The position numbers were made by a program, and so were the translations under genes. Positions 1 through 30,548 of a stretch of DNA of 32,668 nt are shown piece by piece; the first letter of the stretch is position 1, and each line of letters opens with the position of its first letter. Under the pieces are notes generated by a model, which saw only the letters and a program-made list of their open reading frames with translations, ran no database searches and was not told the DNA's origin. Source of the DNA: a virus; IMG/VR virus record IMGVR_UViG_3300025466_000123, positions 1 to 32,668 of that record, one strand, 5' to 3'.

Positions 1-507
1 CCACGCCTGACCTTGGGTAGTTTCTTGATGCGCCCAGAGGTGGCTCAATCGGCCTACCCAGTTGTTATGGATGTCACCGATGCAGCCAGCGTACATTCCT
101 GGCGTCCGTTTGATGATTTCCATGTCACGCTCTAGGGCGGCAAGATCAGTACCATCATCGTCCAAATGAGGATCGCCAATAAAAACAACTGCGACAGGGT
201 CATTAGTGCGTACTTTAACTGGAATGAGTTTACGGGCTTTAGCGGCTTTATCTTTTCTAGCAAAAACCGCCTTTCGGCGGTCTATGAGTGTTCGGATATC
301 AATTTCGCCAGATGGCAATGTCGGGATATGGATGTTTCCCAGTTTTCTCTGAGAACCCCGCATGGTTTCCTCTGCGGTTATTTTAGCAATTCGATGCTGG
401 AAGGCTCTGCGTGAAAGACCGACTAACGAAGCTGCGACCGTCTTGTTACCAGTCGTTTTGAACGCTTCGACAATCTGCTCATCACTTACGTTGCTTTTTG
501 GCTGCAT
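1..507 (-). CDS. Metallophosphoesterase, calcineurin-like, partial (3' end beyond window)
   Basis: The first 169 codons are visible; the gene runs off the left edge. Residues 111-114 read GDPH and residues 144-149 read GDIHNN, the first two metal-binding blocks (GDxH, then GDxxxN-like) of the calcineurin-like phosphoesterase fold. Residues about 8-43 (SDEQIVEAFKTTGNKTVAA, then LSRRAFQHRI) look like a helix-turn-helix of the kind placed in front of phage phosphoesterases. The catalytic histidine blocks would lie beyond the edge. The ATG at 507 overlaps the upstream gene by 26 nt and has no clear ribosome binding site; a second ATG at 366 is possible but would drop the helix-turn-helix. The family cleaves phosphoester bonds in nucleotides, nucleic acids or proteins; the substrate here cannot be told. 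Confidence 0.8.
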   Translation of the reverse strand, partial: MQPKSNVSDEQIVEAFKTTGNKTVAASLVGLSRRAFQHRIAKITAEETMRGSQRKLGNIHIPTLPSGEIDIRTLIDRRKAVFARKDKAAKARKLIPVKVRTNDPVAVVFIGDPHLDDDGTDLAALERDMEIIKRTPGMYAGCIGDIHNNWVGRLSHLWAHQETTQGQAW

Positions 508-709
508 TTTTTGCTTTTGTGATTCTGGCTCTGGCTTTTTTAGTTTCTTTATCGTCACGCGCATAATTTACATAGATGCGGCTATTTTCGATTTTCCAAC
601 TCACGCGATGAACCAAACCGCAGTCACAACATTCTTCCAGTAAAGGTTTTGCGCCATGCGCGACCGCATACCATTTTTTTGAATCCAGTTGGATCGGATC
701 ACCTTTCAT
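482..709 (-). CDS. Small Cys-containing phage protein, 75 aa
   Basis: A 75-residue protein with a CCDCGLVH block near residue 27, followed by a short beta-rich stretch and a very basic C-terminus (KKARARITKAKNAAKKQRK). It resembles short hypothetical proteins common in proteobacterial phages, where a CxCGLVH motif precedes an RR/K tail. Its function is unknown. It lies 8 nt after the lysozyme-like gene and overlaps the start of the phosphoesterase, as expected for a cotranscribed gene. The Cys pair may bind metal but only two or three cysteines are present. Confidence 0.7.
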   Translation of the reverse strand: MKGDPIQLDSKKWYAVAHGAKPLLEECCDCGLVHRVSWKIENSRIYVNYARDDKETKKARARITKAKNAAKKQRK

Positions 710-717
710 CGCAAATC

Positions 718-1122
718 CTAGGCTAATGCGTCTTCAATGCCCGTTTTAATAACAGCGTCTGAAAACGGTTGTTGACCTTGTTCTACATGAATCATCGCAG
801 GAACAATCAGATGGAGCGACTTTACAATATCAATTATGTCATCAACATGACAACCACAGGCTTTTGCTACGGTTTCTGCATAAATATCGGTTTGATTTTC
901 TGAAGGGGGCGCCCAGCGAGCAATCATGTCCTTAATCGTCTTAATTCCAGACATCTGGTAATGCGTGAGAATCCTGCAAGCAGCTCGAATACCAAATTCA
1001 GGCGTTTTAAACGAAACGAAGGCTTCATCCGGCTGATCTAAGGTTTGTCCACGCCAAACGACGCCAGTGCGACGAATGTTTAGAGGATTATTGATTCTTA
1101 GACCTCTTGGGACATTACTCAT
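718..1122 (-). CDS. Lysozyme-like virion protein / peptidoglycan hydrolase (structural protein P5-like)
   Basis: The protein has 134 residues. Residues 6-18 read RGLRINNPLNIRR, followed by a GIRAACRILTHYQ helix, then RWAPPSENQTDIYAETVAKA and a C-terminal GQQPFSD. This ordered set is the signature of a phage family usually annotated as structural protein P5 or lysozyme-like, thought to degrade the cell wall at entry or lysis. The ATG at 1122 is preferred because CAGG lies 9 nt upstream. A longer reading from 1152 would start inside the U-tract of an intrinsic terminator. The gene therefore begins directly after a terminator, so its expression may depend on read-through or on processing of the upstream RNA. 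No signal peptide is visible. Confidence 0.82.
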   Translation of the reverse strand: MSNVPRGLRINNPLNIRRTGVVWRGQTLDQPDEAFVSFKTPEFGIRAACRILTHYQMSGIKTIKDMIARWAPPSENQTDIYAETVAKACGCHVDDIIDIVKSLHLIVPAMIHVEQGQQPFSDAVIKTGIEDALA

Positions 1123-1137
1123 CGAATTTACCTGTTG

Positions 1138-1167
1138 AAAAAATAAAGCCACCGGTTTAAGGTGGCT
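1138..1167 (-). terminator. Intrinsic terminator upstream of the lysozyme-like gene
   Basis: On the minus strand AGCCACC, a loop TTAAACC and GGTGGCT form a 7 bp stem, followed directly by TTATTTTTT. This is a textbook Rho-independent terminator for leftward transcription. It is not between two protein genes: no leftward gene lies before it until the divergent promoters near 1560. It therefore appears to end a short leftward non-coding transcript, or to act as an attenuator of the lysozyme gene 16 nt downstream. Confidence 0.75.
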
Positions 1168-1548
1168 CTACCGGCGTTTACCAGACGTTAGGGATGTAAA
1201 GAAGACTTACGGATTCCCGCCTACGGGCAGAATCCTAACACACCTTCATCCCTACTCTGCAACACCAGTCGTCAAGACACACGTTAGTCGTACCCGTTGA
1301 TTGTCGGGGTCTGTCAGAAAAGCAATTAACTGTCACGGGAGGGTAGCGTGTTCCCAGTGGCTTAAGACCAGGCTCTGACCCACCCCTGTCAACTTGGCGC
1401 CCTACACGGAGAAGCGCAGACGAGTATCCCCTAGTAAAGAGGTCAGAACCTCTCCACCGGAAGGGAGAAAGTGGGGATTCTATGGCCTTTTTCTACCGAA
1501 TCCTGTGTACCTAATCTGGTGCAAAGCAAATAATTGTTGACAGACCCT
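1168..1548 (-). ncRNA. Candidate structured non-coding RNA, about 350-400 nt
   Basis: No credible protein gene fits 1168-1500. The stretch is rich in complementary segments. Positions 1189-1196 pair perfectly with 1247-1254 (8 bp), enclosing a hairpin 1211-1216 with 1230-1235 (6 bp) capped by 1219-1221 with 1226-1228. Positions 1296-1303 pair with 1323-1330 (7 of 8). Positions 1426-1431 pair with 1473-1478, enclosing a perfect 6 bp hairpin 1438-1443 with 1448-1453. A minus-strand terminator closes the region and a weak leftward promoter opens it, so the minus strand is the likely sense. I could not match it to RNase P, tmRNA, 6S, a group I intron or any large phage RNA class I know. The strand and ends are inferred. 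Confidence 0.45.
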
Positions 1549-1564
1549 AATATAAGCATATATA
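1537..1564 (+). promoter_or_regulatory. Rightward early promoter for the recombination operon
   Basis: TTGACA at 1537-1542 is a perfect -35 box, followed after 16 bp by TATATA at 1559-1564. Transcription would start near 1572, giving a leader of about 28 nt before the ATG at 1600. A GAAGGGG tract at 1585-1591 would serve as the ribosome binding site. Confidence 0.65.
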
Positions 1565-1583
1565 GTCGTTTTTCCTGACACAA
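1555..1583 (-). promoter_or_regulatory. Candidate leftward promoter
   Basis: On the minus strand TTGTGT (1583-1578) is followed after 17 bp by TATGCT (1560-1555). It is a moderate sigma70-like match. It overlaps the -10 of the rightward promoter on the other strand, so the two would compete. It would drive the structured RNA candidate and, past the terminator, the lysozyme-like gene. Confidence 0.35.
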
Positions 1584-21966: not shown

Positions 21967-22980
21967 TTATAGCGAGATAGAGTTGTAACCGGTCACTTGA
22001 GTCATTGATTTTGGCTTCACTGATACCAGTTCAGCAATCATCAACACAGCGCCGACATAACCGATCTGCCAGTTTGGAAGCGTGGATTCAAACCCAGTGA
22101 ACACAAACGAACCTTGCTCATGGATGTAGAGCGAGAGATAGTTGGTGTTCAAGAAGTACACGGTTCCCTCTGGGCAATATGGGTCTGGATAAATTGGCAC
22201 ACCAGCAACCATCAGGGCGCGGAACGCAGCCTGTGGGCCGTTAGCTTCGCCATCAAAGCCCGAACCTGGGGTAATGACATATTGCTCTTGACCAACGTAG
22301 TCCTGAGCCAACAGCGTCCAAGTACCAAAACCGCAAACACCGAACGTAGGCACTTCAGCGCCGTACTTCACAGTACCCGAAATGTACTGCAAGATGTTCT
22401 GACGGGTTGGGTTGACGTTACCAGCGGCATACACTTTTGACTGCCACCATGTGTTGCTTGAACGGGAAATGTTGCCGTAAGCACCAGCGGCTGGGTCAGT
22501 GTTCGATACCGCACCAGGCAGACCGATGAACTGCTGCGTGTTGGTGGTGTTGGTGTACAGAGCCGTCGCCATCGCGTCCATCATCACGTTAGTCGCGTCA
22601 TTCATACGCGCTTCGATCAATGGAATAATGGCAGCGTCTTGCTGAACAGCGCCTTCCATGCCTAAGAATGGCACTGGAGCGATCATCAGCTTGAGGTCGA
22701 ATTCTGCGTTGTACGCACCCTGCTGAACGCTGGGCTGGTTGAACGAACCAGAATAGTCTGACCACTGAGCGTTCACAAATTGTGAACCCTGCACTGGCAC
22801 AGTGACCGAACTGACACCGCCCGATGCGCTCTGACTGTTGGCAATCAAAGCAGCCATCAATGGCGTTGAGTTATAAAGCTGGACAACCAGCTTTGGGATA
22901 AACGCTCTACGCGTTACATAGGTAAGTTCCGTATATTGCGAACTACCTGTTGCGGGTACAATACCACCACCGATTGGCAT
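21967..22980 (-). CDS. Major capsid protein (HK97-like fold), 337 aa
   Basis: The protein has the length, composition and position of a major capsid protein: after a scaffold-like gene, with a strong GGAG ribosome binding site. It begins YTELTYVTRRAFIPKLVVQL, has NSTPLMAALIANSQSASGG as an N-terminal helix, and its middle (DLKLMIAPVPFLGMEGAV, then IEARMNDATNVMMDAMATAL) is the spine helix region of the fold. The C-terminal part QIGYVGAVLMIAELVSVKPK matches the A-domain end of podovirus capsid proteins. No N-terminal delta domain or protease gene is seen, as expected with a separate scaffold. Confidence 0.82.
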   Translation of the reverse strand: MPIGGGIVPATGSSQYTELTYVTRRAFIPKLVVQLYNSTPLMAALIANSQSASGGVSSVTVPVQGSQFVNAQWSDYSGSFNQPSVQQGAYNAEFDLKLMIAPVPFLGMEGAVQQDAAIIPLIEARMNDATNVMMDAMATALYTNTTNTQQFIGLPGAVSNTDPAAGAYGNISRSSNTWWQSKVYAAGNVNPTRQNILQYISGTVKYGAEVPTFGVCGFGTWTLLAQDYVGQEQYVITPGSGFDGEANGPQAAFRALMVAGVPIYPDPYCPEGTVYFLNTNYLSLYIHEQGSFVFTGFESTLPNWQIGYVGAVLMIAELVSVKPKSMTQVTGYNSISL

Positions 22981-24485: not shown

Positions 24486-24552
24486 GTTATTTTTCCAGTC
24501 GAATTTAACCGATTGTGAATCATACTTTTAAAACTTGTCAACTTTAGTTGAA

Positions 24553-24576
24553 AGAGGGGTAGTTACCCACCCCTCT
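24553..24576 (-). terminator. Strong hairpin, weak terminator candidate
   Basis: AGAGGGGT (24553-24560) and ACCCCTCT (24569-24576) pair perfectly over 8 bp around an 8-nt loop. On the minus strand the stem is followed only by TTTCAAC, a short U-run, so termination would be partial. It falls between the tiny basic genes and the Pro-rich protein gene, a place to reduce or process the long leftward transcript. Confidence 0.4.
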
Positions 24577-24586
24577 CTCTGTAAGG

Positions 24587-24604
24587 CAAAGGATTGCTCC
24601 TTTG
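24587..24604 (-). other. 7 bp hairpin with GCAA tetraloop
   Basis: On the minus strand CAAAGGA, loop GCAA and TCCTTTG form a perfect 7 bp stem with a stable GNRA loop. It begins 3 nt after the stop of the first 13-codon gene and lies before the 8 bp hairpin, so two hairpins follow that gene in tandem. Confidence 0.55.
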
Positions 24605-24607
24605 ATC

Positions 24608-24649
24608 TTACTTGCGAGCCTTACGACCCTTGCGTGCCTTGCGAGCCAT
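24608..24649 (-). CDS. Micro-gene encoding a 13-aa Arg/Lys peptide
   Basis: ATG at 24649 is preceded by GGAG with 7 nt spacing and followed by 13 codons, giving MARKARKGRKARK, then TAA. Nine of 13 residues are Lys or Arg. The region is otherwise without any long frame. A second 13-codon gene of matching size and similar C-terminal motif lies 69 nt upstream in the operon. A real product is suggested by the ribosome binding site and the pairing; it would be nearly the smallest possible phage protein. There is no proof of translation. Confidence 0.45.
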   Translation of the reverse strand: MARKARKGRKARK

Positions 24650-24718
24650 TACGGTTCTCCAGTGCAGGGCCAACTTAAATTGGGAAGTCAGCCAAACCCA
24701 TTAAATCCCAAGTGGGAA

Positions 24719-24760
24719 TTACCGACGAGCCTTCCGACCCTTTTTGTGCATTTTACGCAT
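24719..24760 (-). CDS. Second micro-gene encoding a 13-aa basic peptide
   Basis: ATG at 24760 follows AGGAAGG with 7 nt spacing and one base after the TAG of the preceding small gene. The product is MRKMHKKGRKARR. It shares KGRKAR with the first micro-gene, at the same position near the end. Nine of 13 residues are basic or His. The strong ribosome binding site directly follows a long imperfect hairpin (24775-24809) that could control access to it. Translation is unproved. Confidence 0.45.
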   Translation of the reverse strand: MRKMHKKGRKARR

Positions 24761-24761
24761 A

Positions 24762-24929
24762 CTAGTACCTTCCTAAAGCGCGTCCCATTTTTCTGGGACT
24801 TGACGCTTTGTAAGTTTTAACATTGGTTGTTTTATATTGCAAATTTCCTGGGCCGCTTCTCGCAGATAACGCTTGTGAGCTAACTCTCGGTTGATCTGCG
24901 GTTGAGGAAATCTCTGGTTTTCTAGACAT
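24762..24929 (-). CDS. Small basic protein after the portal gene, 55 aa
   Basis: The ATG shares one base with the portal stop (TAATG), as other genes here do, and GAAGG lies 9 nt upstream. The product starts MSRKPEISSTADQPRVSSQA and ends KMGRALGRY; it is Ser/Arg/Lys-rich with several AGA codons that look unusual for the phage. The same DNA in the portal frame also stays open for 51 codons with more ordinary codons. Which frame is the real product, or both, is undecided. Confidence 0.45.
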   Translation of the reverse strand: MSRKPEISSTADQPRVSSQALSARSGPGNLQYKTTNVKTYKASSPRKMGRALGRY

Positions 24930-26566
24930 TATTCAACTGCCTTCAAATCAGGTTTGCCCTTGCCTTTCGGTTGAGCAGGAGGAGCTAATGCTGCTTGCGC
25001 GGCCTCTGCTTTCTCTCGCTTTTTGAGTTTCTCAATCAAGTGCTGCTTCATCGGCGGTTCTAACAAATCAATCAATGATTCTTTGTCAATCGCGCCGGTC
25101 TTGAACAGGTTAAATGCCAACTGCCGTAAATCTTCGGTGAATATTGGGCTATTGGAGTGAGCGTCTACTTTAACGACAAAGTCTTTGGTGAACTGTTCGG
25201 CAATGAACTTGTTTCCGGCTTCGTCCTTGAAGTGCGTGTTGTCATACGCTTGCATGAGCTTGAGATACATGGTTGCCACTTTCTCAAGGCTGTCTTCAAC
25301 GATCAGCGCCCGCTTTTTAGCGCGACTTGAACCTAATCTAGCTAACTGCGAGGCGTGACCAGCGGAGCGAACACCCTTCTCACCCTGACCAGACAAGATG
25401 CTTGAAATACCACTGGCTTCCGCAAACATGGCGTCCACTTCGTGAATAACTTCAAACAACTCGGCGGGCATGGCAGGGGCTAAACGATCTGCCTTAGCGT
25501 TTGGCATATCGGTTGATAGCAATCCACCAGCGCGATTCAACGCAAAATTCTTTTCATCCAAGATACCGGTAAATCCGGTAAGTGCGGTAGGTGGATTAAC
25601 TTGCTTAGATAGCAAGTCCAAAATCTCGGTCATGCGTCCGTTGCGAAGCTGCTGAAGCAAGATCAGCCGCTGTACCTCGGACTGACCCCAGTAGTAATCG
25701 TACTGTGGGCTTGGGCAAATCTGCACAAAGGGCAATTCGCCTTTGAGGAATACGGTTTCACCAGGTCGGTCATAGATGAAAATATCTGGATCAGCCATCG
25801 TCACCACGTTGTAATCGCTGATCTCATCGTTCCAGACCCAGAGTTCGTGCATCTTGACGGTATCTTCCGCAACACGGGCTTTGTAGCGGTTCATGCCGTA
25901 CAAATCGAGGTTGACGTTACCGTAAATGGTTGGATTGGTCTGCGACATTACAATTCGGTCGATACCCTCTGGGATGTCTTCTGTTCGGGTATGAACTGCC
26001 GTTCCAATCCGTTTAACAATGGCGTCTCGCTTCGGATGACTATACAAACGGTTGTATAGCTCCGACTTGGTCATGTAATACGTCTGGACAATGGCTTCTT
26101 GCCGGTCTGTGTAGGGAACATCTTCTCGCAACACACCCATGCAGCCGGGTTCTACCAAGTAGGGATGAATTCCGTTATTAACAACAATCTTGATAAATGA
26201 ACTGTTGTAAACCAGTGCCCAGGTGAGGGCTGCGCTAAACACTTGGTCAGTATTGGAATTTAGCCACTCGTCGTTCAGTGCTTGTGTCAAACGGGGAACC
26301 TTAACGTGTTCCGGTTGTGGAACACTTGCGCCCATATTGATGGTGAAACGTGTGGTTTCAGCCGAATACAAGAAGCTGGTCAGTTGGTCAATGTGCGGAT
26401 AAATCTTGTTAAAGTGGGACGGGGATTCTTCCGGCCCCGCCCCAAACAAGTACCAAGCGCGTAAAGACGAATAATCGCCCTTACGCTCATTCAGAGAAAC
26501 AAGGCACTTTTCTACCAGATCACGGTAAAAATCTTCCCTGTCATCATGATTGGTTGGTATACGCAT
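24929..26566 (-). CDS. Portal protein, 545 aa
   Basis: The portal forms the dodecameric ring through which DNA enters and leaves the head. The protein opens with an alpha/beta N-terminal domain (SLNERKGDYSSLRAWYLFG and FNKIYPHIDQLTSFLYSAET), has ELPFVQICPSPQYDYYWGQS and SEVQRLILLQQLRNGRMTEI in the middle, and SGISSILSGQGEKGVRSAGH in the crown/stem region, the normal order for podovirus portals. The C-terminus is Ala/Pro/Lys-rich. Length 545 is typical. Its start overlaps the upstream stop as TAATG. After its TAA the frame stays open for 51 more codons. Confidence 0.85.
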   Translation of the reverse strand: MRIPTNHDDREDFYRDLVEKCLVSLNERKGDYSSLRAWYLFGAGPEESPSHFNKIYPHIDQLTSFLYSAETTRFTINMGASVPQPEHVKVPRLTQALNDEWLNSNTDQVFSAALTWALVYNSSFIKIVVNNGIHPYLVEPGCMGVLREDVPYTDRQEAIVQTYYMTKSELYNRLYSHPKRDAIVKRIGTAVHTRTEDIPEGIDRIVMSQTNPTIYGNVNLDLYGMNRYKARVAEDTVKMHELWVWNDEISDYNVVTMADPDIFIYDRPGETVFLKGELPFVQICPSPQYDYYWGQSEVQRLILLQQLRNGRMTEILDLLSKQVNPPTALTGFTGILDEKNFALNRAGGLLSTDMPNAKADRLAPAMPAELFEVIHEVDAMFAEASGISSILSGQGEKGVRSAGHASQLARLGSSRAKKRALIVEDSLEKVATMYLKLMQAYDNTHFKDEAGNKFIAEQFTKDFVVKVDAHSNSPIFTEDLRQLAFNLFKTGAIDKESLIDLLEPPMKQHLIEKLKKREKAEAAQAALAPPAQPKGKGKPDLKAVE

Positions 26567-27052: not shown

Positions 27053-27448
27053 TCATTTACCTCCTAGCATTTCATTCAGAGTAGGATTTGAATAATCAGC
27101 CTTATTAGTAATACCCAACTTAATCTTTATTTCGCCATTAACCACTTGTAAGCCAGTGCTGCGTTTCATTCTTGGCGCAGCGTCTTTGCTGTATGCAACA
27201 TATCGGGTGTTATCTCTGTTTTGGAATATGCGTACCCTGCCCTCGGCATAGGTGTGGTACGCCCGACTGACCCGACGTTGAATGGTTTCCGTTAAAGTGT
27301 CTTGCTCATACAGAAACACCTTTTTGAAGTGCGTCAGGCTCATGCCAGCCAGATCGCAAAACAAAGCAAGGCTGATGCCTCGGTCTTTGTCTTTGGCAAA
27401 CCGTTGCATATAAAGCAACAGGTCTTTTTTTGGAATCACCTTATCCAT
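27053..27448 (-). CDS. Putative terminase small subunit / HTH DNA-binding protein, 131 aa
   Basis: The ATG at 27448 is preferred to a TTG three codons earlier. An N-terminal helical domain (LLLYMQRFAKDKDRGISLAL, then FCDLAGMSLTHFKKVFLYEQ) looks like a helix-turn-helix, followed by RRVSRAYHTYAEGRVRIF and a basic segment. Small DNA-binding proteins next to the large terminase usually recognise the packaging site, so this is the best candidate for the small subunit, although here it follows rather than precedes the large subunit. It overlaps the terminase gene by 8 nt. Confidence 0.5.
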   Translation of the reverse strand: MDKVIPKKDLLLYMQRFAKDKDRGISLALFCDLAGMSLTHFKKVFLYEQDTLTETIQRRVSRAYHTYAEGRVRIFQNRDNTRYVAYSKDAAPRMKRSTGLQVVNGEIKIKLGITNKADYSNPTLNEMLGGK

Positions 27449-29198
27449 AGACGCCAATCTTCTTTAGGTAGTCAGACACATTGCGCCCGACCGCAATCTG
27501 CTCTGGCGTTTTATCTTCCTGATTACGGGAAATCTCCCGTGACAGCTTTTGGTTAATCAAACGGGGCTGAAGTTGTTCAGCATAGGCCGCTACCGCAAGG
27601 GCAGTGGCTATGACCCGATCATCCTTGTTACGTCCGGTTGCCTGAATCGTACCGCCATCCCGAACAATGGTCTTCATTTCCTCAAGCAAATCCATCGAAT
27701 AGATAGCCATCATGGAACGCTCAAAGTAATCCTTCATGTAGGACAACATCCGTTCCTTAGTCGCACTGGTGGTCAGCCATCCAATGCTGTTGCTAGGGCC
27801 ACTGAGCGTGTCATTACGCCGCCAAAGGTAGTTCTGCATATTGCCGTAGACATCCATCAGAGAACGTCCCATAGAGCCGCCTATGGCAACTGCCTGACGC
27901 TTGAGGTTCTTCAGTTCGTTGATAACTGCCTGACCTGGGCCATTGACCTCAAGGTTAAGGGTTGAGTTCTTGTAGGCTCCGGCTAGGTGGGCAATGACCC
28001 AAGCAAACTGATAGGTATTCAGTTCACTGGTTGCAAACTCTGCCACCTGTTCCATACCGTCTGAATAGCATCTGAATACTTGTATGCAAAAGCGATCAGC
28101 CCAGTCGGATGACCCGTAGGCTGGGTCTGCGCCAATAACGTAGTAAGCCGTATCAATGGGTTCTTCCCAAATCTTCAAGGTTGCCATGCGCTCGTTTGAG
28201 GGTATGACCTGCGTATCTTGGAAGTTGGCTCCCATGACGTAGCGGTAGGAATCAAACTTGAGTTTCTTAGCAATCTTTGCCGCATCGGTGCAGCGGGCAT
28301 TACTGAAGAAACTAGTGCCGGTCATGATGAACGCATAGTCCTCAGTGGGCGGGAACTCCTGATACATCAGGGATTCTTCTTTAATTCCCTCAAGTAGCTT
28401 CCAACGCCACCAAGCCATCTGACGGGAGTTGATCTCAACGTCATACAGTTTCTTGATGTCTTTTGTCCATTCCTTTTCTTCTGGCGTTAACTTGCCGTCC
28501 CAGTAGACCTTGTAGATATTGCTGTTAGGGTCTACGGAGTAATACTCATTGCGCCACCAGCCGCAGAAGATCGCCTTCTGTGTTCTGGCCTTCCGTGCAG
28601 TCACATACATATCGTGGAACATATTGAAGCCACGGGCTGTGCTTTCAAATATGTACATACGGTTAGGGTTGTTCTCAGCAAGTGATGCCAATAGGGATGC
28701 CAGACCTTCCTCATCGCCCCAGGAGGAGGTTTCAGTACCGTGCAAATAGGTAATTGCCTTACCGCGTCCTAGAGAGCCTTTGGCGCGTAACCCAGCCACC
28801 TGATAGAACAGACGGGAACGGTTCTTCAGGGAGAGCTGTGTTCTGTTATGCGCTAACAGGGGAATCCGGTATTCCTTGGGTAAGCCATCCATGTACATGG
28901 ACAGGGTAGACCGAAACATATCCCTGTTTTCTTCCGTATCGGTTGTCAGGGTTCCTTGGAGACCCGGATTGATAAAGTGCCAGTACAGATCGAGTGCTAG
29001 AGAGATTGTAGTGATGCCAAGCTGCCGTCCTTTGAGGATGACAAACATATGAACATCGTTTTCTAGGCCAGACGCAATTTCGTTCATCACATAGGTTTGA
29101 GTCCCTAAGAGATGATCCATGCGCTTTAAGCCTTCCTCTTTAGTTTCAATCTTTAGTTGAGAACAAAAGCTATAAAACTGTTTGAGGTTGAATTTCAT
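27441..29198 (-). CDS. Terminase large subunit
   Basis: A 585-residue packaging motor. Residues 56-63 (KGRQLGIT) form a Walker A variant with R-Q-L-G-I-T, and AITYLHGTE at 148-156 is the Walker B position. FEST at 184-187 is the coupling motif. In the nuclease domain ADPAYG at 357-362 supplies Asp358, LEVNG at 416-420 supplies Glu417, and NKDDRV at 524-529 supplies the third acidic residue. Length is normal for a podovirus. The start overlaps the preceding gene by ATGA. It translocates DNA into the portal and cuts it at packaging start and end. Confidence 0.92.
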   Translation of the reverse strand: MKFNLKQFYSFCSQLKIETKEEGLKRMDHLLGTQTYVMNEIASGLENDVHMFVILKGRQLGITTISLALDLYWHFINPGLQGTLTTDTEENRDMFRSTLSMYMDGLPKEYRIPLLAHNRTQLSLKNRSRLFYQVAGLRAKGSLGRGKAITYLHGTETSSWGDEEGLASLLASLAENNPNRMYIFESTARGFNMFHDMYVTARKARTQKAIFCGWWRNEYYSVDPNSNIYKVYWDGKLTPEEKEWTKDIKKLYDVEINSRQMAWWRWKLLEGIKEESLMYQEFPPTEDYAFIMTGTSFFSNARCTDAAKIAKKLKFDSYRYVMGANFQDTQVIPSNERMATLKIWEEPIDTAYYVIGADPAYGSSDWADRFCIQVFRCYSDGMEQVAEFATSELNTYQFAWVIAHLAGAYKNSTLNLEVNGPGQAVINELKNLKRQAVAIGGSMGRSLMDVYGNMQNYLWRRNDTLSGPSNSIGWLTTSATKERMLSYMKDYFERSMMAIYSMDLLEEMKTIVRDGGTIQATGRNKDDRVIATALAVAAYAEQLQPRLINQKLSREISRNQEDKTPEQIAVGRNVSDYLKKIGVYG

Positions 29199-30156: not shown

Positions 30157-30184
30157 ATCATATACAAATAAACAGAAGATGCAA
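30157..30184 (-). promoter_or_regulatory. Candidate leftward (late operon) promoter
   Basis: On the minus strand TTGCAT (30184-30179) is separated by 16 bp from TATGAT (30162-30157). The -10 matches consensus at five of six positions and the -35 only partly, as in phage promoters helped by an activator. The leader before the ATG at 30128 would be about 25 nt. Confidence 0.5.
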
Positions 30185-30519
30185 ATAAATAGGAATTTTT
30201 TATGGGGGGGTTGAGTTAAGGGTCACGCCCTACAGCCCCCCTGTGTCCAATGCCTGGGCGCGGGTGCTAGCGATCGCGTGTGCCAGCGAGCGACAAGGCC
30301 ATAGGAGGACTACAGAGAGCGAGAGAGTAGATGCGCGAGAGAGTGTAGATGGGTGGACATGATTACCCTAGATTGGGAGAGGACGGAGAGTAGACCTTCT
30401 CTCTCACTCTCACCCCTACATCAACGCGTTACATATACCTACATTACAGACCACTATTTATGTCTCATATATATATATAAGAGAGTTTGATCTATCGACT
30501 CTAACCTTCCACTAACCAA
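30185..30519. other. Gene-free control region, packaging-site or origin candidate
   Basis: No credible gene lies here. It begins with a T-run and seven G residues (30203-30210) that can pair with six C near 30236-30241 around an inner AGGG/CCCT stem. A GC-rich block with TAGCGATCGCG-like sequence follows (30260-30295). Next come a purine-rich stretch with GAGAG repeats (30311-30394), a pyrimidine-rich stretch (30396-30417), then an AT-rich stretch with TA repeats (30463-30480). Such a mix of GC-rich, polypurine and AT-rich segments, lying between two divergent operons and close to the terminase genes, would suit a cos/pac site or a replication origin. Neither is shown by the sequence itself. 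Confidence 0.4.
30319..30351 (+). repeat. Imperfect tandem GAGAG direct repeat
   Basis: GCGAGAGAGTAGATG (30319-30333) and GCGAGAGAGTGTAGATG (30335-30351) are two copies one base apart that differ by a 2-base insertion. A third partial copy GGAGAGTAGA lies near 30385-30394. They could be binding sites for a replication or packaging protein, or a simple slippage product. Confidence 0.7.
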
Positions 30520-30539
30520 ACATTAAGACATCTTAATGT
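30520..30539. promoter_or_regulatory. Perfect palindrome, operator candidate
   Basis: ACATTAAGA (30520-30528), CA, TCTTAATGT (30531-30539) is a perfect inverted repeat with 9 bp arms. It ends 9 bp before the -35 box of the rightward promoter. No U-tract follows, so it is not a terminator. The position fits an operator for a dimeric transcription factor activating or repressing that promoter. Confidence 0.65.
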
Positions 30540-30548
30540 AAATACCTA

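Follow-up and report, generated by a model that had tools for sequence, protein, structure and literature searches.

The short leader of phage lambda is the 6S RNA. Late control in lambdoid phages comprises the promoter pR', a short leader, the terminator tR', the lysis genes and the Q antiterminator (PMC6606751). In Pseudomonas aeruginosa, AlpA allows RNA polymerase to read past an intrinsic terminator that lies just before the alpBCDE lysis genes (PMC7969949). The put RNA of phage HK022 demonstrates that nascent RNA alone can make polymerase termination-resistant; it is about 70 nt long, consists of two stem-loops near the early promoters, and acts on the zinc-binding domain of the polymerase beta' subunit (PMC9378689). 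GOLLD and ROOL are large ornate RNAs of phages and bacteria (PMC12286853).

Here we analyzed a 32,668-base virus record (the window), in which a region at positions 1138–1548 may be the transcribed leader of a leftward lysis operon, gated by a terminator, opened by antitermination and thereby timing lysis. We hold this reading tentatively, as one that is quite possibly correct. As in the lambdoid pR'-tR' system, an intrinsic terminator stands between the leader and a lysis cassette, and the leader RNA would be constitutive, with read-through gating lysis. The differences from that system are a leader of about double the length under strong constraint, a cassette detached from the structural genes, and a lack of sequence similarity; neither a promoter of the pR' type, nor a -10-like pause element, nor a Q protein was recognized here. 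The locus shares with AlpA/alpBCDE the placement of lysis genes behind an intrinsic terminator directly before the first gene, but no AlpA-like family match was found among the early proteins scanned, and the leader of the AlpA system was not reported as a conserved structured RNA (PMC7969949). Like put, it would provide a phage leader RNA whose structure could itself confer termination resistance; however, its conserved core is about 228 nt long and precedes lysis genes, its size and fold are different, and no put-like match was found in Rfam (E up to 5) or by sequence. It resembles GOLLD and ROOL as a large structured non-coding RNA in a phage genome, whereas those RNAs are larger, widespread and represented by Rfam models, none of which matches here. 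The sequence thus appears to lie outside all Rfam families, with no homologue beyond three close phage lineages, while the type of control element would be one already known.

Gene setting, terminator and coding capacity

The region has a divergent early promoter to its right; to its left begins a separate leftward operon, the detached lysis cassette. The features are listed from right to left.

27441–29198, 24929–26566 and 21967–22980, all leftward: structural genes for terminase, portal and major head protein
From 1600, rightward: recombination operon (73-aa protein, YqaJ-like exonuclease, RecT, SSB, RusA)
1537–1566, plus strand: strong sigma-70-type promoter (TTGACA-18-TATAGT, 11/12 consensus bases) that drives the recombination operon, divergent from the leader
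1506–1547, minus strand: putative 5' part of the leader, in which 1538–1547 is a 10-nt exact complement of 1308–1317 and could compete with the rod
1485–1505: segment replaced in L010, according to the alignment, by about 310 nt with a 107-codon plus-strand ORF
1257–1484, minus strand: near-invariant core of the putative leader RNA, containing the rod (about 1292–1400) and the 5' hairpin (about 1430–1465)
1171–1256, minus strand: variable hairpin (spacer stem) in the interval between core and terminator
1138–1170, minus strand: intrinsic terminator with a 10-pair stem, a 7-nt loop and a U-tract
721–1122, minus strand: endolysin (lysozyme/transglycosylase-like; phrog_873 'endolysin', 3e-46), the first gene past the terminator
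482–709, minus strand: 75-aa protein, second gene of the leftward operon (92% identity in L010)
1–564, minus strand: N-terminal half of a 368-aa HTH/metallophosphoesterase (phrog_7339, 1e-41), cut by the record end
Next in L089 after the phosphoesterase: GTA_holin_3TM holin (PF11351, 1e-13; phrog_3427, 5e-18)

Family searches with the 75-aa protein were without match, and the Metallophos_2 match of the 368-aa protein was below the Pfam cut-off. The gene for the latter continues at L089:6227–7333 in a near-identical contig. Judged by these assignments, the leftward genes for the endolysin, the 75-aa protein, the HTH/metallophosphoesterase and the 3TM holin form a lysis cassette. The 368-aa protein combines an HTH-like N-terminus with a metallophosphoesterase domain, and its gene is placed between those of endolysin and holin in the cassette.

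Read on the minus strand from 1170 to 1138, the terminator is TAGAGCCACC-TTAAACC-GGTGGCTTTA-TTTTTT; its stem includes one G-U pair, and the hairpin energy is -14.5 to -17 kcal/mol. When both strands were scanned with a custom method, the entire record gave only two terminators, the one at 1170–1138 scoring better, and shuffled genomes yielded 0.2 terminators per genome at the same score cut. It was unflagged by a consensus scanner, and the call is based on the custom scan, folding and direct reading. About 15 nt separate the terminator from the endolysin start codon (ATG, 1122–1120), and this gap contains only a weak ribosome-binding-like AACAGG. A first reading of the sequence alone (the sequence-only reading) had placed a minus-strand terminator directly before the lysozyme-like gene; that terminator is real, and it is the strongest intrinsic terminator of the 32.7-kb record.

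The region is non-coding, in agreement with the same reading, which had seen no plausible protein gene in it. The longest start-to-stop ORFs inside it are 33–48 aa, and its open stretches had no match in PHROGs or Pfam. Two relatives, L010 and L011, carry 1-nt deletions (at 1433 and 1411, respectively) within the otherwise unchanging core. These indels shift every frame across the core, which argues against a protein, and no protein-coding conservation was found there.

Sequence constraint and exchanged flanks

Across all collections searched, only two diverged relatives were found, L010 and L011 (L094 is a longer version of the same contig as L011). The core at 1257–1484 differs between the window and L010 at 4/227 positions, between the window and L011 at 6/227, and between L010 and L011 at 2/226 (1–3%). 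Four-fold sites of the exonuclease gene changed at 17/125, 24/126 and 25/131 in the same comparisons (14–19%; Fisher p 1.5e-5, 2.8e-7 and 4.5e-10 against the core), so that the core changes roughly ten times more slowly than these sites. None of the 33 terminator sites changed among the three sequences. By contrast, conservation is lowest in the hairpin at 1171–1256, the first example given by the sequence-only reading: comparing L010 with each of the two other sequences gave 10/86 and 13/86 changes, indistinguishable from four-fold sites (Fisher p 0.83 and 0.47), and the hairpin folds in all three sequences. Because the hairpin evolves at a neutral rate while the core and the terminator are constant, constraint is assigned to these last two units, and in these comparisons the hairpin behaves as a spacer stem between them.

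Recent exchange among mosaic phages could account for part of the low divergence of the core. Patches of such exchange exist, since only 2/144 four-fold sites of recT changed between the window and L011. Transfer of the stretch as one block, however, would not leave a constant core beside a variable hairpin, which counts against exchange as the sole cause. Within the limits of three sequences, the comparisons show strong constraint on core and terminator.

The gene content on either side is mosaic. In place of the lysozyme-like protein, L010 and L011 encode an M15 peptidase (PF13539, VanY) as endolysin (L010:2063–2479, corresponding to 721–1122 of the window). DNA similarity to the window stops exactly at the endolysin start codon, and leader and terminator are unchanged. 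The 107-codon ORF of L010 (L010:2858–3181, plus strand) follows directly to the right of the core; it has its own ribosome-binding-like AAAGGA, and its final codons extend into sequence that does not code for protein in the window. The ORF has no relative in any searched collection and is therefore of no help in deciding the strand. Farther to the right, the 73-aa gene of L010 is only 71% identical to that of the window. With the endolysin swapped on the left and the ORF and the 73-aa gene differing on the right, leader and terminator were kept while the flanking gene content changed. In the relative L061, an M15 endolysin sharing 67% identity with the L010 enzyme is encoded at the end of the late operon; there the upstream gene overlaps its start codon and a leader is absent, suggesting that the leader goes with the detached cassette.

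Folding of the region and searches for relatives

The sequence-only reading had argued from several perfect helices. The pairs 1189–1196/1247–1254, 1211–1216/1230–1235, 1426–1431/1473–1478 and 1438–1443/1448–1453 are indeed exact reverse complements; the pair 1296–1303/1323–1330 is imperfect, with one G.T on the plus strand that is an A.C mismatch on the minus strand. Compared with shuffled sequences, the region has 33 rather than 22 perfect helices of at least 6 bp (p = 0.048) and 5 rather than 1.4 of at least 8 bp (p = 0.046), a marginal excess over chance.

The minus-strand fold of 347 nt has an energy of -128.6 kcal/mol (z = -3.0), and the plus-strand fold is weaker by 17–19 kcal/mol. In a genome scan of 350-nt windows, in which 14 shuffles per window make the z-scores rough, the mean z was -1.07 (sd 1.5), and coding windows reached -4 to -6. 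Because other windows of the genome reach lower values, the region is not singled out by fold energy alone. Fold energy is supportive of the minus strand and does not decide function; the argument from helices and fold energy is weak once controlled. The minus-strand model of 1138–1484 consists of the 5' hairpin (about 1430–1465), a long irregular rod (about 1292–1400), the variable hairpin and the terminator. Among the three distinct sequences (window, L010 and L011), 0/117 predicted pairs vary on both sides, 5 are kept by a wobble change, and 8 are broken or gapped. Conservation in these three sequences is thus of sequence rather than of pairs.

The sequence-only reading had been unable to name a class, and a covariance-model search with 4227 Rfam models yielded no family either: no hit reached gathering score anywhere in the record, and 1100–1620 gave none even at E values up to 5. 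Group I intron, RNase P, 6S RNA, tmRNA and cobalamin riboswitch were dropped, none having an Rfam match, and a tRNA/tmRNA search found none. Searching phage, plasmid and E. coli genome sequences returned a single chance match to 33 nt (H1) and nothing else. DNA pattern scans of viral contigs with four core patterns recovered known contigs only, apart from chance and noise matches: L095 is a coding region that fits a core pattern by chance, and the roughly 70 contigs hit by a 14-base pattern scored at noise level against both a profile and a rod covariance model. Two genome-collection scans returned nothing. No related RNA was found in the exonuclease relatives L012–L086 (BLAST, profile HMM and covariance model), or in the relatives of the 75-aa gene (L092 and L093) and of the endolysin (L004–L006), which have other gene neighborhoods. 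A packaging RNA, which had also been suggested from the sequence alone, is unsupported: the terminase operon is a separate transcription unit about 28 kb away along the record, and there was no match to any packaging-RNA family.

Proposed control of the lysis cassette and competing readings

The same early reading had proposed a regulatory RNA or long attenuator. A leftward non-coding RNA or attenuator before the lysozyme-like gene is also our best reading, strengthened by the downstream lysis cassette and the near-invariant core, while the helix and fold argument once made for it is weak. RNA polymerase would start on the minus strand to the right of 1484, probably at about 1500–1570, back to back with the rightward early promoter. 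None of the minus-strand promoter candidates is convincing: the best match 8/12 consensus bases, with nothing better upstream of the core, and one candidate, with a 19-bp spacer, is inside the core. The product would be a structured non-coding RNA of roughly 350–410 nt that normally ends at the terminator and may accumulate as a small RNA. Late in infection, polymerase made termination-resistant would read through into the genes for the endolysin, the 75-aa protein, the phosphoesterase and the holin, and lysis would be timed in this way. The conserved core would be what this switch recognizes, in the form of either DNA or nascent RNA. No Q, N, AlpA or other antiterminator was recognized in the set of early proteins searched (part of them read from a relative, and several ORFs matching nothing).

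Protein-dependent antitermination with the core as recognition element appears the most likely arrangement, ranking above control by RNA only, a free small RNA and a DNA site. If it is correct, the locus would add an independent example in which a long leader and a terminator separate the promoter from the lysis genes, here in phages among which no antiterminator has been recognized, with 1257–1484 and the terminator as testable pieces. It would also mean that the control of lysis timing was kept constant while the lysis enzyme behind it was swapped for an unrelated one. A more far-reaching version is doubtful: the core of about 228 nt, within the nascent transcript, would make polymerase ignore the pre-lysis terminator, alone or with a phage protein of an unrecognized family, and would represent an undescribed class of phage RNA. 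It would be a new RNA class only if the core acts as RNA on polymerase.

Control by RNA only, as in HK022 put, would have the nascent leader refold with no dedicated phage protein, through pairing of 1538–1547 with 1308–1317 in competition with the rod, or of 1241–1251 with the terminator arm. The first pairing derives from inverted copies of TGACAGACCC at 1308–1317 and 1538–1547, and a 10-bp helix of this kind has a chance probability of p = 0.08. For a transcript starting to the right of 1547, the predicted fold pairs the two segments and opens the rod in 3/3 sequences, including L010 with its insertion; if the transcript includes 1538–1547, pairing probabilities are 0.84–1.0 over most of the helix in the window, L010 and L011. 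The two mutually exclusive folds are close in energy (-152.4 and -145.6 kcal/mol in the window, -151.1 and -147.2 in L011), which invites a switch model. However, the terminator hairpin is predicted to form at a probability of at least 0.97 in both folds, the transcript start is only putative, and the divergent plus-strand promoter has most of its -35 box within 1538–1547, so that conservation of this segment has another cause. The second pairing, in which the GGUG-containing segment 1241–1251 would act as an antiterminator, is predicted in the window and L011 (-9.2 kcal/mol) but lost in L010 (-3.2 kcal/mol), where the terminator is intact; we dropped it because it is absent from L010. Taken together, we consider control by RNA only unlikely.

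Alternatively, the terminator could end a discrete RNA that works in trans, by targeting messages of the host or the phage or by sponging a protein, the endolysin gene being transcribed otherwise. A near-invariant core with a strong terminator and no coding capacity would suit such a small RNA, as would the failure to recognize an antiterminator. The approximately 15 nt before the ribosome-binding region of the endolysin gene are, however, too short for a second promoter. Transcription of the operon would then depend on read-through or on an internal promoter located within coding DNA, and there is no homologue elsewhere that suggests an independent element. A free-standing small RNA is therefore, in our judgment, also improbable.

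No likelier is a double-stranded site between the divergent operons, such as a replication origin or a regulator-binding array, in which the hairpins would be incidental. The position between divergent transcription units, the inverted copies of the 10-nt sequence, and conservation of sequence rather than pairs all fit a DNA element. Against it, there are no iterons and no sharp turn of GC skew here, the better folding of the minus strand would be unexpected from pure DNA symmetry, and the divergent non-coding region at 30170–30545 is at least as good an origin candidate.

The leftward leader also has to be weighed against a plus-strand RNA that would lead into a gene read rightward. The 107-codon ORF of L010, immediately right of the core and having an AAAGGA of its own, is an example of such a gene. 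Since that ORF is without relatives and is missing from the window and L011 although the core is unchanged, and since no plus-strand promoter was seen at the left edge, the terminator U-tract is on the minus strand and the plus-strand fold is weaker, we regard this reading as very unlikely. That the region is intergenic filler, alike through recent exchange among three phages, is hardly credible, because the three sequences, the recT value (2/144, window vs L011) and an unexceptional fold energy that would allow it are outweighed by a core that is low in all three pairwise comparisons beside an adjoining hairpin that is neutral against L010 (4/227 vs 10/86, Fisher p 6e-4).

Two further non-coding stretches of the record were observed. 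The one at 30170–30545 (about 370 nt) has the main leftward structural operon to one side and a rightward promoter-like TTGACA to the other; it holds a GGGGGG/CCCCCC hairpin, has a fold z of about -1.8 on both strands, and is possibly an origin or late promoter region. The other, at 24486–24780 on the minus strand, is a late-gene gap adjoining the portal gene, in which two tiny ORFs encoding very basic 13-aa peptides, MRKMHKKGRKARR and MARKARKGRKARK, are followed by strong hairpins. The interval 24501–24850 had the lowest z in the rough genome fold scan (-9.2), the gap 24486–24780 alone had -3.35 (200 shuffles), and a 28-nt piece of the gap has a weak match to phage record MW202753.
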